Shown piece by piece: positions 4,679 through 35,522 of a stretch of DNA of 35,522 bases (position 1 is its first letter; every line of letters begins with the position of its first letter). A program made the translations under genes and the position numbers. A model generated the notes under the pieces. The model ran no database searches and had not been told where the DNA came from. It saw only the letters and a list, made by a program, of their open reading frames with translations. This DNA is from a virus: positions 1 to 35,522 of IMG/VR virus record IMGVR_UViG_3300006853_000010; one strand, written 5' to 3'.

Positions 4679-5751
4679 ATCGAAAGACTAAAACTTGCCG
4701 AATAGAAACCGGGGATCTTGTGACCTCCATGCTGTGTGGGCCTAAGTGGTCGCCCTACGCGCAGGCTATTGCGGATCATTATCCTGTTCAGATGCCATGG
4801 TATCTGACAAAAACTGTGAACTTATCCGATACTGGCGCTGTCAGCCCGCGATTCACTCAGATCACAAGTCCGCAGTTGCATGATGTCTTAATATTGGGAA
4901 TGTCGGCTCTCGTCTTCAATACACCGCTTTTTACCGACAACGGGAACTTTATTTATTTAAATATAACCGATAAAGAAACCGGCATTCCATGGGTTGCGCC
5001 CAACACAATTGGCTATGCGCCTTTGCCGGCCTTTGCCGGTGTCAACCTTCCTACAGTTGGCCCATCGTTGGTGAATCTATCGACAACGCCCATTATCAAA
5101 TTGCCCGAAGCGTTTTTTTTACCGAGGGGTGTACAACTCAAACTCGACTGGACGGCTATCGCGAGCAATGTCAGTGTGGTCAACAGAAGCGCATCGCTAA
5201 CCATGATCGGGGTTCAGTTAATCAATCCAAAGCAGGGAAGCAAGGCCCCAAGCCATGTGACCATGCCCAATGGCGATACTATTCCGGTTGGCTCCCGCAT
5301 GCCGTGGTTTGGATGCGTTCCGTTCGGCGGAAAACTTTCAACTGGCGTGATAAGAGGTTTCAACAATTTTACTCTACCGATTGGCCAGCAATTGTTACAG
5401 TTTTTTCCACCGCTTGATTGCAATGTTGAAATGCATGATAGCTACGGAAATTTTCTAGTCTCGCCTACGGCTTATGATGGGCTGGCGGGCGCTGGGTTTC
5501 CCACCACCTTTTTAACTATGAAATTTACGGACATGGGCGCTGAAAACGATTGGACCCCAGGGCTATCCCCCACACCGGCATTGTTGGGCAAAGAAACAGA
5601 TGTTCAGCCTGTCATGCCGTTTCCCAAACCTGCTTATTTGGAAACGGGACATCGAACGGCTTTTACAGCGCAAAATAATACGACGGCTGTCGCCGGCCAG
5701 GTCAATCAAGGGACGGTGACAATCAGAGGGGTAAGGCTCTGCGAGTACTGA
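4675..5751 (+). CDS. Beta-rich capsid-type protein B, two-domain
   Basis: ATG 4675 overlaps the previous stop (ATGA) and gives 358 residues; the frame is open further upstream but only within gene A. The protein holds two similar halves. The first, about residues 50-205, resembles protein A and ends IGVQLINP; the second, about 225-358, ends QGTVTIRGVRLCEY after PKPAYLETGHRTAF, the same strand order in weaker form. Two tandem beta-sandwich domains in one chain recall the route from single to double jelly-roll capsid proteins, but I cannot verify the fold from sequence. It could equally be a penton or spike-base protein. No transmembrane segment. Confidence 0.75.
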   Translation: MNRKTKTCRIETGDLVTSMLCGPKWSPYAQAIADHYPVQMPWYLTKTVNLSDTGAVSPRFTQITSPQLHDVLILGMSALVFNTPLFTDNGNFIYLNITDKETGIPWVAPNTIGYAPLPAFAGVNLPTVGPSLVNLSTTPIIKLPEAFFLPRGVQLKLDWTAIASNVSVVNRSASLTMIGVQLINPKQGSKAPSHVTMPNGDTIPVGSRMPWFGCVPFGGKLSTGVIRGFNNFTLPIGQQLLQFFPPLDCNVEMHDSYGNFLVSPTAYDGLAGAGFPTTFLTMKFTDMGAENDWTPGLSPTPALLGKETDVQPVMPFPKPAYLETGHRTAFTAQNNTTAVAGQVNQGTVTIRGVRLCEY

Positions 5752-10929: not shown

Positions 10930-11502
10930 TCACTTTCGCCACAGCCCTTCGAACCGCTTCGAAGCGGTTCGCGTGTATCGGACTGTGTGATGAATGTTCT
11001 GATGACCCAAATAGTCTTGGATCAATCGAGTATCGAATCCCTTGTTGGCCAGGTAGTAGCCGCACGAATGCCGGAGCATGTGCGGCCGGACCTTGAACGC
11101 CAACCCTGCGCGCTTTCCGATCTGTTCGAACAAATAGTTGACGGCCTGACGCGTCATCGAGCCCCGCTCGCCCACGAAGAGATGCGGCAAATGAGCGAAC
11201 TTCGACTCTCCCCGAATCCGGAGCCAGGCGCGGAGAGCGCGCAGTTCGTCTCCTTCGAGGGGATGTTCGGTCGAGAGACTTCCCTTCAGGCGGCGAACTT
11301 GCATCCGGGCCGTTCGAAGGTCAACTTCTTCGAGGCGCACATCGATCAGCTCTGACACCCTGAAGCCGTGACGATAAGCCAGGAGCGCGAGCAAGAAATC
11401 CCGAGGGCCGTGAGTTCCCTTCCGGGCGGCTATCAAAAATTGCTCGATCTCGGCGTCGGTCAGAAAGTCTTTTACGCGACGATCCACAGTCAGTGTTTTC
11501 AT
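10930..11502 (-). CDS. FimB/FimE-like tyrosine recombinase
   Basis: This 190-residue protein (start at 11502; in-frame ATG 11532 is an alternative) consists of a tyrosine-recombinase catalytic domain with almost no N-terminal core-binding domain. That is the architecture of the fimbrial switch recombinases FimB/FimE. The resemblance extends to sequence: LLAYRHGFRVSELIDV with Arg48, STEHPLEGDE, HMLRHSCGYYLA (H141, R144), DTRLIQDYLGHQNIHHTVRY with H167 and the nucleophile Tyr176, and a terminal RFEGLWRK. The catalytic set is complete. FimB-type enzymes invert short promoter-bearing DNA or serve small mobile elements; here it could invert a segment or resolve replicon multimers. A separate full-length integrase is encoded at 28542, so this is probably not the main integrase. 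The ribosome site is weak. Confidence 0.9.
   Translation of the reverse strand: MKTLTVDRRVKDFLTDAEIEQFLIAARKGTHGPRDFLLALLAYRHGFRVSELIDVRLEEVDLRTARMQVRRLKGSLSTEHPLEGDELRALRAWLRIRGESKFAHLPHLFVGERGSMTRQAVNYLFEQIGKRAGLAFKVRPHMLRHSCGYYLANKGFDTRLIQDYLGHQNIHHTVRYTRTASKRFEGLWRK
10950..10971. repeat. 22-bp perfect palindrome in the recombinase 3' end
   Basis: The arms are CGAACCGCTTC and GAAGCGGTTCG with no spacer, a perfect 22-bp palindrome coding for the residues just after the catalytic tyrosine. Two abutting 11-bp arms equal the arm length of Xer/dif-type binding sites, although dif has a 6-bp centre. It may be a site for the enzyme itself or simply a cruciform or RNA hairpin. Confidence 0.85.
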
Positions 11503-11536
11503 ATTCTTTACTTTACAGAAGTTGGAGACCATAGAG

Positions 11537-11574
11537 AAGCCCGCGAAAATATTGGTGATTTTCGCGGGCTTTTT
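11537..11574. terminator. Strong 14-bp hairpin before the recombinase gene
   Basis: AAGCCCGCGAAAAT (11537-11550) and ATTTTCGCGGGCTT (11558-11571) form a perfect 14-bp stem with a 7-base loop. On the + strand it ends in five T; on the - strand the tail is weaker (CTTCTCT). Leftward transcription from the early block meets it just ahead of the recombinase start, so it likely lowers recombinase expression. Confidence 0.8.
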
Positions 11575-11582
11575 GCCTGATT

Positions 11583-11608
11583 CCATTCAAAAGGAACTTT
11601 TTGTTAAG
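11583..11608 (-). promoter_or_regulatory. 26-bp dyad repeat, copy 1
   Basis: On the + strand CCATTCAAAA-N6-TTTTGTTAAG. The right arm matches the consensus fully, the left arm partly. It overlaps the TAA stop of the gene at 11604. See the finding on the six-copy family. Confidence 0.6.
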
Positions 11609-26713: not shown

Positions 26714-27151
26714 ATGAAAATTTCAATTCTGTTTTTGCTTTTGTGTTTATTGCCCTTCCCTTCAATTGGACAAGAACTAGCCAGCGAATCTATCTTGCTC
26801 AACGGGACATACCACGTGGCAGAACGAAACTATCAGGTCTTTGAGTTCTCTTTCGACCGAGATCAAGGCGCTGGTCAGATAGGCGGTAGAATCAGCGTTC
26901 AAGGGCCAGCCAGTTTCGATATTCAGGTTTGGATTGTGGATTACGCCAACCTGGAGAATTTTATAAACAGGCAGGCGTTTGATGCTTATCTCAATACGGG
27001 TAGGGTCAGGCTGAAGACATTTGATGTGACTCTTGAGCCGGGGCCCTACTATCTGATCTTCGATAATAGATTCTCAGCGATCAACGACAAGAATGTTCAT
27101 GCCGGAGTGGCTTTACGGCAGTTCAAGCGTAGACATCGGGAGAGACCGTAG
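26714..27151 (+). CDS. Secreted protein, possible lysogenic-conversion factor
   Basis: This 145-residue protein has a clear signal peptide (KISILFLLLCLLPFPSIGQ) with cleavage near residue 19-20, and a beta-sandwich-like mature part: NYQVFEFSFDRDQGAGQIGG, ISVQGPASFDIQVWIVDY, LEPGPYYLIFDNRFSAIN. The PGxYYLIFDNRFS block resembles GOLD/pre-peptidase-type beta domains found in secreted proteins. AGGAGG lies 7 bases upstream. It is expressed from the regulator/integrase block rather than with the virion genes, so it is probably made in the lysogen and acts in the periplasm or outside. Its target is unknown. Confidence 0.8.
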   Translation: MKISILFLLLCLLPFPSIGQELASESILLNGTYHVAERNYQVFEFSFDRDQGAGQIGGRISVQGPASFDIQVWIVDYANLENFINRQAFDAYLNTGRVRLKTFDVTLEPGPYYLIFDNRFSAINDKNVHAGVALRQFKRRHRERP

Positions 27152-27161
27152 ATAGAATGGC

Positions 27162-27234
27162 GCCCATCGCGGGCATACTCAGGTCGAAACCCTGAGCATG
27201 CCTAAAACCTGGGATTGGCAGGTACGCAATGGGC
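27162..27234 (+). ncRNA. Candidate three-way-junction structured RNA
   Basis: In the 155-bp gap between two genes, 73 bases fold on paper into a closed three-way junction. Closing stem: GCCCATCGCG (27162-27171) with CGCAATGGGC (27225-27234), one mismatch. Hairpin 1: GGCATACTCAGG (27172-27183) with CCTGAGCATGCC (27191-27202), one mismatch, loop TCGAAAC. Hairpin 2: ACCTG (27207-27211) with CAGGT (27219-27223). Linkers are only 0, 4 and 1 bases, a compact design. It is not a tRNA and lacks the CTGANGA core of hammerhead ribozymes. It could be a riboswitch or a stable RNA for the downstream membrane protein gene; the - strand can pair equally. Confidence 0.6.
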
Positions 27235-27306
27235 AGTTGTTTTTAAGCCATAGACTTAGACTTAGCAACCCCCTTTCTTGCCTGCCTCAAACAAAGTGAG
27301 GCGACA

Positions 27307-27993
27307 ATGAACAACATTCAAGAAGCGTTCAAATATAACAGGGCGCGAAAGAACGTGATCATCGGCGGCATGATTATCTTGCTGGCAATCACCGCGCTCA
27401 GTTGCGTGTCTAGTTTCATGATCTATCGTGATGGATTTGCGGACTTCCCGCCGTCCTTCCAGGTGGTCCTGGCGCTCTTTGCTGTCGTCGTGGTCGAAGG
27501 CGCGTTCGTTTGGTTGGTTTACGGCTTTACGCGGGCTTTCTCTTCCGGGACTGAGCGATTGGTATCTCTCGCCGGCATGGCCTTTTTGGTCGTCGTGATG
27601 CTGATTAATCTCATTACGCATTTCATGATGGTCAAGGGCATTTCCCTTTCCGAATTTCAAGAGGGATGGATTTCCTGGGGGGCTGTGAGTGTGTTTATCA
27701 CGGTTCTCTTGATTGTCTTGTTTATCACTCTGGCCGATCCGGTGATTCGCCTTGTTCGTCTGGAGCTTAGGTATAAAGGCAAACAGGAAGAGAAAATCTT
27801 GGAAGCCAAAACATCCGCGCTCGACAATCAAAAACTTCAATCTGCGATGGAAGAAAGAGCGGACATTGAAGCGGACGCCCTAGCAACACGGATTCTCGAT
27901 CAGGGGCGAATCGCCGCTCCGGCTTATGGTCATGCAGTAAGACCTACACAGCGCAAGGTTGGCTATCTTGGAGAGGATGACCGCTTGGACTGA
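27307..27993 (+). CDS. Four-helix membrane protein with cytoplasmic coiled coil
   Basis: This 228-residue protein has four predicted transmembrane helices: VIIGGMIILLAITALSCVSS (about 17-36), FQVVLALFAVVVVEGAFVWL (about 51-70), LVSLAGMAFLVVVMLINLI (about 85-103), AVSVFITVLLIVLFITLADP (about 126-145). A charged helical tail (ELRYKGKQEEKILEAKTSAL) and basic C-terminus follow. AAAGTGAGG is the ribosome site. It lies in the lysogeny block; four-helix early/lysogenic membrane proteins often act in exclusion of other phages, but nothing here is diagnostic. Confidence 0.8.
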   Translation: MNNIQEAFKYNRARKNVIIGGMIILLAITALSCVSSFMIYRDGFADFPPSFQVVLALFAVVVVEGAFVWLVYGFTRAFSSGTERLVSLAGMAFLVVVMLINLITHFMMVKGISLSEFQEGWISWGAVSVFITVLLIVLFITLADPVIRLVRLELRYKGKQEEKILEAKTSALDNQKLQSAMEERADIEADALATRILDQGRIAAPAYGHAVRPTQRKVGYLGEDDRLD

Positions 27994-28010: not shown

Positions 28011-28463
28011 ATGAAAGCGCGCGGCGCTCCCGTAATCGCCCCGTTTGTAGCGCCCACTTCAACTATCGTTTCCCCTGTTTTGCGGAATAGCCGCAAAGAT
28101 TCCGCAAGTCGTGTAAAGGCATCGAAGAAGACCGAGAGATTGAATGTCACGAAATCACGATCAGCGGGTCAAGAATGCTGGACGATCAAGACAGGCAAAC
28201 GCGGCGAAAAGCAAGCTGATTTTCGCGTTCGCTTGGCAGACTCCGGCTTTCGTGTTGTGTTGAGTTTTTACGATGATTCCAACGTTCGGCGTGAGAGATA
28301 TTGTTGCTATCTGAGCGCTGATGAATGGCGAGAATCGAAACGTAAAAGCTTGACTGATTTTGCTAGATTGATTGCTGACAAAGTTGACGCTCGACATGTA
28401 GCCGGCGATCTTGACGCCGCAAGGTATCAGGAAATTGCGCCACGACTATCTGTAATCGCATAG
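28011..28463 (+). CDS. Unknown protein before the integrase
   Basis: This 150-residue protein has GGGAGCGTCGAA before ATG. The N-terminal ~50 residues are low-complexity (PVIAPFVAPTSTIVSP, then KKTERLNVTKSRSAG). The C-terminal part is globular: QECWTIKTGKRGEKQADFRV, GFRVVLSFYDDSNVRRERYC, DEWRESKRKSLTDFARLIAD. The second half has an integrase-arm-like, DNA-binding feel, but I recognise no family. It may be an accessory factor for integration, given its position directly before the integrase, or a regulator. Confidence 0.7.
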   Translation: MKARGAPVIAPFVAPTSTIVSPVLRNSRKDSASRVKASKKTERLNVTKSRSAGQECWTIKTGKRGEKQADFRVRLADSGFRVVLSFYDDSNVRRERYCCYLSADEWRESKRKSLTDFARLIADKVDARHVAGDLDAARYQEIAPRLSVIA

Positions 28464-28497: not shown

Positions 28498-28533
28498 CGA
28501 CAAAGGCCGGGGGATGATCTCCGGCTTTTGTCG
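28498..28533 (+). terminator. Terminator/hairpin ahead of the integrase
   Basis: CGACAAAGGCCGG (28498-28510) pairs with CCGGCTTTTGTCG (28521-28533), 13 bp with one G-U, 10-base loop, with TTTT within the 3' arm. It lies between the 28463 stop and ATG 28542 and would limit integrase read-through. Confidence 0.75.
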
Positions 28534-28541
28534 TTGAGAGC

Positions 28542-29660
28542 ATGCAAATCAAAAAAGTCTGGCGCAAAGATCTGGGCGAATGGCGCTACAAAATCGACGT
28601 GACTGTGAATGGTCAAAGGTTCAGGCGGGCGGACTTCGAGAAGAAGTCAGAAGCCGAAGACGCAATATCGGCTTTGCGGTTGAAAGCGAGATCTGACCGC
28701 TACGGCCTGACTCTACCAAAGCCAAAAATCACACTTGCATCTCTAAAGAGTAGTGTGACGAAAGATCGAAAAGACATGCGAATTTTTAAAGAGTTTGTCG
28801 AGCTGGTTGGCCCGGAGACTTTATTGACTGACCTAACGCGGGCCGATTGGAAAAACTATGTTGACTGTCTCAAAGCCCGGAAATGCAAGCCCGGAACGGT
28901 CAACAGGTATATGGCCGAGGTCTCGGCTATTCTGTCTTCAGCGTCAGAGAGATTCCCGGATCTAGGCGAATGGCGATGTCCTAAAATCCCATGGCTGACA
29001 TGGCCTCTCGGTCGCAATAGAGTTTTATCCAAAGAAGAGATTTCAAAAATTCTCTTTGCTCTGAAGGCCGAGAGACAACATCACGAACAATATTTTTCCG
29101 TCAAGAATCGGGCCGAGGTCTTTGATCTGTTTCGGTTGATGCTTCTCACAGGCGCAAGGGAAGGGGAGATTTTAAATCTTAGGCAAGACCAAATTTCATG
29201 GGACTGGCGCACGGTCAAGCTTGTCTCGAAGAAAGGCGGCGGATCTGTTCGCGTTGTCCCGCTGTCTGGCTCGGCTCTGGAGATATTGCGATCTCGAAAT
29301 CAGGGCCAGAGATTCTTTTCGATCAATCGGGACAAGCTTTATAGAACGCTCGAAAGAATCGGCGTCATGTCCGGTGTGGCCTATGGAGACAACATTGACG
29401 GGGGATGGGTGATTTATGATCTCCGCCACGTTGCCGCGACAGTGATGGAGAATGCCGGCGTCCCATATAGCGCCGTCTCTGCGATACTCGGCCATAAACG
29501 AAAAGACCAAACAGCCACGTATGCCCATGCCCAGATGGAGACATTGAGAAGGGCGGTTGAAGTTCTTGAAAACCATTGTCGAGAGATTGACGGGTTTGAT
29601 ATTCCCAGATGCCATGAAATGCCCCTTGATGCCCCTTCGCCGCAGCAAGCATTTGGCTAG
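28542..29660 (+). CDS. int: Phage integrase, full-length tyrosine recombinase
   Basis: This 372-residue protein has an arm-binding-like N-terminus (EWRYKIDVTVNGQRFRRADF, 13-32), a SAM-like core-binding domain (about 70-155) and a catalytic domain (160-330). Catalytic residues are Arg206 in LLTGAREGEI, a lysine near 230, LRH at 294-296 in YDLRHVAATVM, GHK with His318 and the nucleophile Tyr327 in TATYAHA. This is the usual layout of temperate-phage integrases that join attP and attB. ATG 28542 lies directly after a hairpin terminator and has no strong ribosome site, so expression is limited. It differs clearly from the short FimB-like enzyme at 10930. A C-terminal extension after the tyrosine (MPLDAPSPQQAFG) is longer than usual. 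Confidence 0.93.
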   Translation: MQIKKVWRKDLGEWRYKIDVTVNGQRFRRADFEKKSEAEDAISALRLKARSDRYGLTLPKPKITLASLKSSVTKDRKDMRIFKEFVELVGPETLLTDLTRADWKNYVDCLKARKCKPGTVNRYMAEVSAILSSASERFPDLGEWRCPKIPWLTWPLGRNRVLSKEEISKILFALKAERQHHEQYFSVKNRAEVFDLFRLMLLTGAREGEILNLRQDQISWDWRTVKLVSKKGGGSVRVVPLSGSALEILRSRNQGQRFFSINRDKLYRTLERIGVMSGVAYGDNIDGGWVIYDLRHVAATVMENAGVPYSAVSAILGHKRKDQTATYAHAQMETLRRAVEVLENHCREIDGFDIPRCHEMPLDAPSPQQAFG

Positions 29661-33086: not shown

Positions 33087-33701
33087 ATGGCGGCTTTGGG
33101 CGCGACTTATCCCACGACGGCACGCGATCATCATCTCGCTGTCAATCTGTTCGCGCCCGCCGTCTCCCTTCCTGAGCCTGCGATTATTTACTCCCCGCTG
33201 GCTGAGGGCGCAGGCGGGACTTGGCAAACACTCGCGGCGATGCAAGCTTGCGTGTTGGGCCAAGTCCCGCCTGATTACTCAGGCTATCAGGACGAATTCA
33301 ATATCAGCGCGGCGGATGCAATCTGCGCCAATGCTCCCGGCCAAGAAGCATTGGCGCAGATTGCCGCGCTGTTCAAGTGGGTGACTCAGAACATCACCTA
33401 TGAGCCTCATCCCTTCAATCAACAAATTTGCCAGGACGCTAGACGCACACTCGAACTGAGAAAGGGCGACTGCGTAAGCCTGTCAGTATTGCTCGCAACT
33501 CTGTTGGCCTGTGTGGGCTATCAATCACAGTTCGTCACGCAATTTGTCGATGGCGAAGACGCTTCGCACGTCTACGTCGAAGTGTTTTTACCGAGCGGTG
33601 AAACGCTCGCGCTCGATGCGGTTGCCGATGACAAACCAATGGGATGGAGACAACCCACACTCGATGGTGGTTTTGAAGTTGAATGGCCGATTTTTACTTA
33701 G
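33087..33701 (+). CDS. Transglutaminase-like protein, first late gene
   Basis: This 204-residue protein has the transglutaminase-like triad: Cys129 in RKGDCVSLSVLLATLL, His161 in DASHVYVEVFL and Asp177 in TLALDAVADD. The preceding helix WVTQNITYEPHP is typical of the fold. Such proteins act as peptidases, cross-linkers or, in phages, as proteins of unknown function in the structural cluster. In this operon it could cross-link or process virion proteins. There is no signal peptide. Start ATG 33087 with GAGG upstream. Confidence 0.85.
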   Translation: MAALGATYPTTARDHHLAVNLFAPAVSLPEPAIIYSPLAEGAGGTWQTLAAMQACVLGQVPPDYSGYQDEFNISAADAICANAPGQEALAQIAALFKWVTQNITYEPHPFNQQICQDARRTLELRKGDCVSLSVLLATLLACVGYQSQFVTQFVDGEDASHVYVEVFLPSGETLALDAVADDKPMGWRQPTLDGGFEVEWPIFT

Positions 33702-35203: not shown

Positions 35204-35522
35204 TGGGTTGTAGTTGCGAACAATCAGGCATGAGTGGTTGCTGCGGTTCGGGGCTGAGCGGTTTGTATGGCCTTGATCGCCTGATGGGCGCTTTGCTTGC
35301 CCCAGGATCACAAGTCCGCGTGGGCTTCGCCTATGAATCAGTGGCCACACAGAGCCAGATCAATCAGGGCTTAGAGCGGCCTGTGTATATTCAAGACATG
35401 CTCCGAAATAGCCTGCTCGAAGCGGGTATTTTCGATTCCGTCTCTGTGACCGTCTCCCCGCCTCCAATTTCGTTTCTGACAGATGGCTATATTTTGGTTC
35501 AGGGAATTACGCGAGGTCAGCA
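35203..35522 (+). CDS. Tail-anchored late protein, 5' part of the gene crossing the join
   Basis: ATG 35203 overlaps the previous stop (TGATG) behind AGGAGGGCATC. The N-terminus is Cys/Gly/Ser-rich (MGCSCEQSGMSGCCGSGLSG), followed by LDRLMGALLAPGSQVRVGFA and YIQDMLRNSLLEAGIFDSVS, which continues in frame to base 2 of the window. The whole protein has 221 residues (81 here plus 140 there). The N-terminal cysteine cluster has no recognised motif; it might carry disulphides or a metal. The C-terminal anchor is described at 1-436. Confidence 0.85.
   Translation, partial: MGCSCEQSGMSGCCGSGLSGLYGLDRLMGALLAPGSQVRVGFAYESVATQSQINQGLERPVYIQDMLRNSLLEAGIFDSVSVTVSPPPISFLTDGYILVQGITRGQ
35433..35522. repeat. 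Terminal overlap of a circular sequence (right copy)
   Basis: Identical to bases 1-90; see the left copy. Confidence 0.95.

Follow-up and report, generated by a model that had tools for sequence, protein, structure and literature searches.

The locus and its gene neighborhood

The window analyzed here is the entire IMG/VR virus record IMGVR_UViG_3300006853_000010 (35,522 nt), whose ends carry an exact 90-bp direct terminal repeat (1-90 and 35433-35522); the record is therefore probably a complete genome, circular or terminally redundant. An upstream plus-strand ORF (26714-27151) and a membrane-protein ORF starting at 27307 are separated by an intergenic gap, and in this gap, as the sequence-only reading held, lies a 73-nt three-way-junction element (27162-27234, GCCCAUUGCG...CGCGAUGGGC), which begins 10 nt after the upstream ORF and is assigned here to the minus strand as a proposed antisense RNA. 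The membrane-protein ORF (27307-27993, plus strand, 228 aa), the proposed regulated gene, is followed by ORF2 (28011-28463, plus strand, 150 aa, no family), the second ORF of the proposed transcription unit, and by a tyrosine recombinase (integrase) gene at 28542-29660. Between ORF2 and the integrase gene, there is a terminator-like site (28506-28530, GCCGGGGGATGATCTCCGGC followed by TTTTG), so that the integrase is probably outside the transcription unit of ORF2. The virus additionally encodes a second tyrosine recombinase (10930-11586, minus strand; PF00589, E 2.6e-38) and a transglutaminase-like protein (33087-33698; PF01841, E 1.7e-13).

The membrane-protein ORF has no Pfam or NCBIfam match above the cut-off and no match in named phages or plasmids, and its structure model is a low-confidence helix bundle (pTM 0.45). 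Homologs are encoded in four other viruses (L004, L014, L015, and L016) and in Acidobacteria chromosomes (L017-L020 and L031), the latter being the sole basis on which the host of the virus is probably to be sought among Acidobacteria. In the chromosomes, the homologs are found close after lexA (TIGR00498), with an ORF2-like gene and an ORF of only 89-99 aa downstream (L017, 4383-6729; L031, 1480-3230); to judge from this context, the family may take part in the SOS response, e.g., as a division inhibitor. A 387-aa distant homolog (30% identity, E 6e-12), apparently fused to an ORF2-like tail, is encoded at the same place on the opposite strand in another viral record (L005, 4839-6002), without the three-way-junction element. 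The leader of the homologous ORF in L016 contains, at 4850-4960, a tRNA-like remnant (GCCGGTTCAAATCCGGC) whose ends, GACCGCG and CGCGGTC, are complementary and which is not called by ARAGORN.

A three-way-junction fold retained in four viruses

The element consists of a 10-bp closing stem, P1 (27162-27171 paired with 27225-27234, the latter arm being the predicted 5' end of the minus-strand RNA), a 12-bp hairpin, P2 (27172-27202; arms 27172-27183 and 27191-27202, 7-nt loop 27184-27190), and a 5-bp hairpin, P3 (27207-27223; arms 27207-27211 and 27219-27223, 7-nt loop 27212-27218), joined by linkers of 0, 4, and 1 nt. This layout had been proposed from the letters alone, and both the predicted minimum free energy structure and the centroid reproduce it exactly on either strand, at -35.9 kcal/mol (z -5.3) on the plus strand and -43.4 kcal/mol (z -7.0) on the minus strand. 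Shuffled controls, the comparison by which the original proposal could have been refuted, never folded as well as the element (0/200 on either strand). Only the minus strand pairs throughout the 10-bp and 12-bp stems; on the plus strand, each contains one mismatch, C.A in P1 and A.C in P2, both of which are G.U pairs on the minus strand.

Searches that used either the membrane-protein ORF or patterns of the element as query showed it to be present in three further IMG/VR virus records (L002, 5856-5927; L003, 5857-5928; L007, 532-605, the latter identical to L012), in all three upstream of the same membrane-protein ORF. In a hand alignment of these four members, three P2 pairs (alignment positions 14-40, 15-39, and 19-35) are changed on both sides with pairing kept, and the column-shuffle test gives z -6.8 on the plus strand and -8.9 on the minus strand (0/500 as good). 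P3 and its linkers are invariant, as is most of P1, and these parts are uninformative for covariation, so that the evidence consists of three double changes in the variable P2 stem among four sequences. The covariation whose absence would, by the sequence-only reading, have refuted the structure is thus present. P1 forms 10 standard pairs on the minus strand in all four members, with one to three A.C pairs on the plus strand. No copy beyond these four was detected with the covariance model of the element (R1) in 14 related records. Searches of 396 Acidobacteriota genomes and of 162 genomes from a single class gave no credible copy either, and pattern scans likewise left the total at four. The single weak model match of 25.7 bits (L028) was set aside as a chance match because, read by eye, it apparently lies inside a coding gene, and L029, L030, and L034 were read and similarly set aside.

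Rfam 15 yields no match at the gathering score in the window and none up to E 5 for 27100-27320, and an ARAGORN search for tRNA and tmRNA finds no genes, in agreement with the earlier view that the element fits no recognized class and is not a tRNA. Hammerhead and purine-riboswitch readings were rejected, the core bases being missing and Rfam matches absent, as was a T-loop (tRNA-like) reading of the P2 loop, in which positions 54 and 56 are not retained. The folded-RNA element is real and previously uncatalogued. This much of the original interpretation, a structured RNA outside the catalogs, is upheld by the covariation and by the empty Rfam and tRNA searches; the suggested sensing of a ligand is not, given that no known aptamer class was matched in Rfam and no metabolic gene is adjacent. 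The other suggestion, a stable small RNA, is possible; here the evidence points to the minus strand and to a role as antisense of the downstream gene's leader, a possibility not considered in that reading.

Between the window and L003 or L007, the element is 82-85% identical and the stretch from the element to the ATG 78-97% identical, whereas the 150 bp upstream are unrelated (50% identity between the window and L003, 54% between the window and L007); the gene preceding the element in L007 is encoded in the opposite direction. The records L005 and L006 encode an integrase 86% identical to that of the window, and the covariance model finds no element in them. Given this break of homology at the element and the integrases without it, the element marks the left boundary of a cassette that, by these comparisons, comprises the leader, the membrane-protein ORF, and ORF2; judged in the same way, it follows the membrane-protein ORF and neither the upstream gene nor the integrase. 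Placement in a lysogeny block, proposed earlier, is fair as a description of the location near a tyrosine recombinase gene, with which the element is not consistently found. In the four distant viruses with homologous ORFs, structured two-hairpin regions precede the ATG by 66-182 bases and bear no evident sequence similarity to that of the window; no such structured leader was found in the chromosomal homologs scanned (L017-L020).

Facing promoter-like sites, strand bias, and the leader

The element is flanked by two facing promoter-like sites, at equal offsets in all four relatives. The plus-strand site (27130-27158, TAGACA-17-TAGAAT), whose predicted start (about 27165) falls 3 nt within the element from its left end, is the top-scoring site of its locus and ranks at locus percentiles 100, 99.8, 92, and 97 in the four members; its TAGnnT is retained in all of them, even though the DNA preceding the element cannot be aligned in L003 and L007. 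The minus-strand site (27240-27268, TTGCTA-17-TAAAAA; TTGCTA-18-TATAAG in L007) has a predicted start at 27234 +/- 1, the right end of the element, and ranks at percentiles 97, 98, 97, and 99. Both sites rest on consensus scores and are candidate promoters, not proof. The predicted plus start drops the first three bases of P1 on the plus strand, whereas the minus start retains the whole stem. On the minus strand past the element, no intrinsic terminator-like site was found, so that a discrete short minus-strand RNA would need processing or another ending.

The mismatches in the stems also differ between strands. Where a change on one side only has left a non-Watson-Crick pair in the four members, it is always a transition; of these events, five are A.C on the plus strand (G.U on the minus) and one is G.U on the plus strand (A.C on the minus); five thus favor the minus strand and one the plus strand, a small number of events for which a simple sign test gives about 0.11, not significant alone. 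The fold is more stable on the minus strand than on the plus strand in all four members. In the distant viral hairpins (L004, L014, L015, and L016), all ten non-Watson-Crick pairs are A.C on the plus strand, in a stem search that scored G.U and A.C alike. Shuffles of these sequences gave A.C and G.U in a ratio of 98:36 on the plus strand, that is, about 73% A.C is predicted from composition, compared with 159 A.C vs. 187 G.U elsewhere in the same loci; since composition favors A.C there, the 10:0 ratio is only suggestive against composition (p ~0.04) and not decisive.

On the plus strand, the element is followed by a second hairpin (27236-27269, GUUGUU.UUUAAG / CUUAGA.AGCAAC) that overlaps the minus-strand promoter-like site; a hairpin of different sequence, read by eye, occupies this position in L007. 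Closer to the start codon, a hairpin (27283-27303, UGCCUCA / GUGAGGC) is predicted to sequester the Shine-Dalgarno sequence of the membrane-protein ORF. The P3 3' arm region (GGCAGGUA, 27217-27224) can pair, in place of P3, with UUGCCUGCC (27278-27286), which overlaps the anti-Shine-Dalgarno arm, in a predicted alternative of eight pairs. The two leader folds differ by no more than 1.3 kcal/mol in all four members. Such predicted near-equality fits a switch but is often seen between alternative folds, and in the second one the ribosome site is not clearly released. The leaders of the window, L002, and L003 are mostly the same sequence, and these three members are not independent. A leader peptide from the start codon at 27229 (MGSCF) was rejected, this ATG being lost in L007.

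Proposed antisense control and its alternatives

The best explanation, to which we assign a probability of roughly 0.4, appears to be a minus-strand cis-antisense RNA that would repress the membrane-protein operon via the overlapping 5' end of its mRNA. The computed part of this model comprises the fold, its conservation by compensatory changes, the link to the ORF, the strand bias, and the facing promoter-like sites. The mechanism that we infer, with transcription of both strands, loop-loop pairing, and repression, would run as follows. The element would be the region shared by two transcripts that overlap where the mRNA of the membrane-protein operon begins. The minus-strand RNA, beginning at about 27234, would adopt the three-way-junction fold with all stems perfectly paired and would be complementary throughout to the first ~70 nt of the plus-strand mRNA. 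Its two 7-nt hairpin loops would pair with the nascent mRNA as in the RNAI/RNAII or CopA/CopT systems, and the RNA would then occupy the P3 3' arm (GGCAGG), such that the anti-Shine-Dalgarno strand would keep the ribosome site of the ORF shut. In the rest of the virus, there is no other stretch of at least 11 nt complementary to the minus-strand RNA, which leaves the overlapping leader as its only evident target.

The loops are compatible with recognition of this kind. The pair of P2 and P3 loop sequences is different in each of the four viruses, and in L002, five of the seven P3 loop bases differ while the stem is unchanged. A YUNR motif is found in the minus-strand P2 loop of all four members despite the loop changes, compared with 23% of random 7-mers. 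In antisense systems that act through loop-loop contacts, YUNR is reported to be ubiquitous in one of the recognition loops, and new incompatibility groups are reported to arise from loop mutations (PMC4485353). A more far-reaching proposal, which we regard as improbable, is that a closed three-way-junction antisense RNA, encoded between facing promoters and with loop-coded specificity in each virus, would allow a resident virus to silence the same gene only in incoming, loop-matched relatives; viruses of Acidobacteria would then control superinfection by means of an RNA.

The main rival, itself rather unlikely, is a plus-strand cis-regulatory leader alone, in which the junction would be the 5' part of the mRNA leader and no antisense RNA would be made; a protein, temperature, or a translation event would set the leader either to the junction with a closed ribosome site or to the pairing of the P3 arm with the anti-Shine-Dalgarno strand. 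The strong plus-strand promoter-like site ending 3 nt before the element, the retention of the element only with the membrane-protein ORF, the near-equal energies together with the Shine-Dalgarno hairpin, and the U.G pairs seen by eye on the plus strand of the second hairpin are all consistent with such a leader, whereas the poorer plus-strand fold in every member, the five A.C events, the loss of three P1 bases from the predicted transcript, and a ribosome site not clearly freed in the second state argue against it. The strand and promoter evidence applies equally to a minus-strand small RNA acting on host RNAs or a protein, with the leader overlap incidental; such a target is less probable still, considering that the leader is the only evident complement in the virus, that the element is tied to the membrane-protein ORF in every member found, and that there is no terminator. 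Of low probability, too, is a DNA-level structure, a single-stranded or extruded hairpin bound by a protein, e.g., in replication or recombination: the good folds on both strands and the mix of A.C and G.T, which needs no RNA, are in line with it, and the facing promoter-like sites and the location fixed to a gene leader speak against it. An attachment site of this integrase, in particular, is contradicted by the L005 and L006 records, where the integrase occurs without the element. Finally, a terminator of the upstream gene, suggested by its end 10 nt before the element and by TTTTT 5 nt past the stem in the window, is nearly refuted by L007, which has no such T run and an upstream gene in the opposite orientation, as well as by the unrelated upstream sequence in L003, and the element is not reported as terminator-like.

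The preferred antisense reading can be compared with several known systems. In ColE1 RNAI/RNAII and R1 CopA/CopT, an antisense RNA overlaps the 5' part of its target RNA, with hairpins of 7-nt loops and specificity residing in the loops. The element would share the overlap geometry, the 7-nt loops, and the loop specificity; it differs in forming a closed three-way junction rather than separate hairpins, in a proposed target that is a membrane-protein gene rather than a replication primer or Rep, and in the lack of a detected terminator and of an Rfam match. Without a defined 3' end, it can be said to work like a cis-antisense pair and is not filed as a member of this class. The phage P4 CI and P1 C4 immunity RNAs are small structured RNAs of temperate phages, processed from the same transcript, that repress by pairing with phage RNA. 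The element would resemble them as a small structured phage RNA repressing by pairing, whereas its RNA would come from the opposite strand and have a different target, and it matches nothing in Rfam. In ermC-type translational attenuators and riboswitch leaders, mutually exclusive 1:2, 2:3, and 3:4 pairings end on the ribosome site. The mutually exclusive pairings predicted for the present leader similarly reach the ribosome site, in contrast without a conserved leader peptide or a match to a ligand class. With respect to the kind of evidence, the element is closest to candidate structured RNA motifs from comparative genomics, compact conserved RNAs before genes with unproven function (PMC2864571), without being among the motifs cataloged in Rfam.

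Altogether, the structured element is real and new, although ordinary in kind, and the mechanism proposed for it is attractive but unproven. The virus group is unstudied and the RNA absent from the catalogs; since it has relatives as well as a clear partner gene, it lends itself to simple reporter tests. If only the leader reading is true, the element would be a new regulatory leader for a membrane protein with chromosomal relatives beside lexA. If the antisense reading is true, plasmid-type antisense control would now include a compact junction RNA encoded by an integrase-carrying virus, and the four viruses would provide a natural series of loop variants for studies of specificity.
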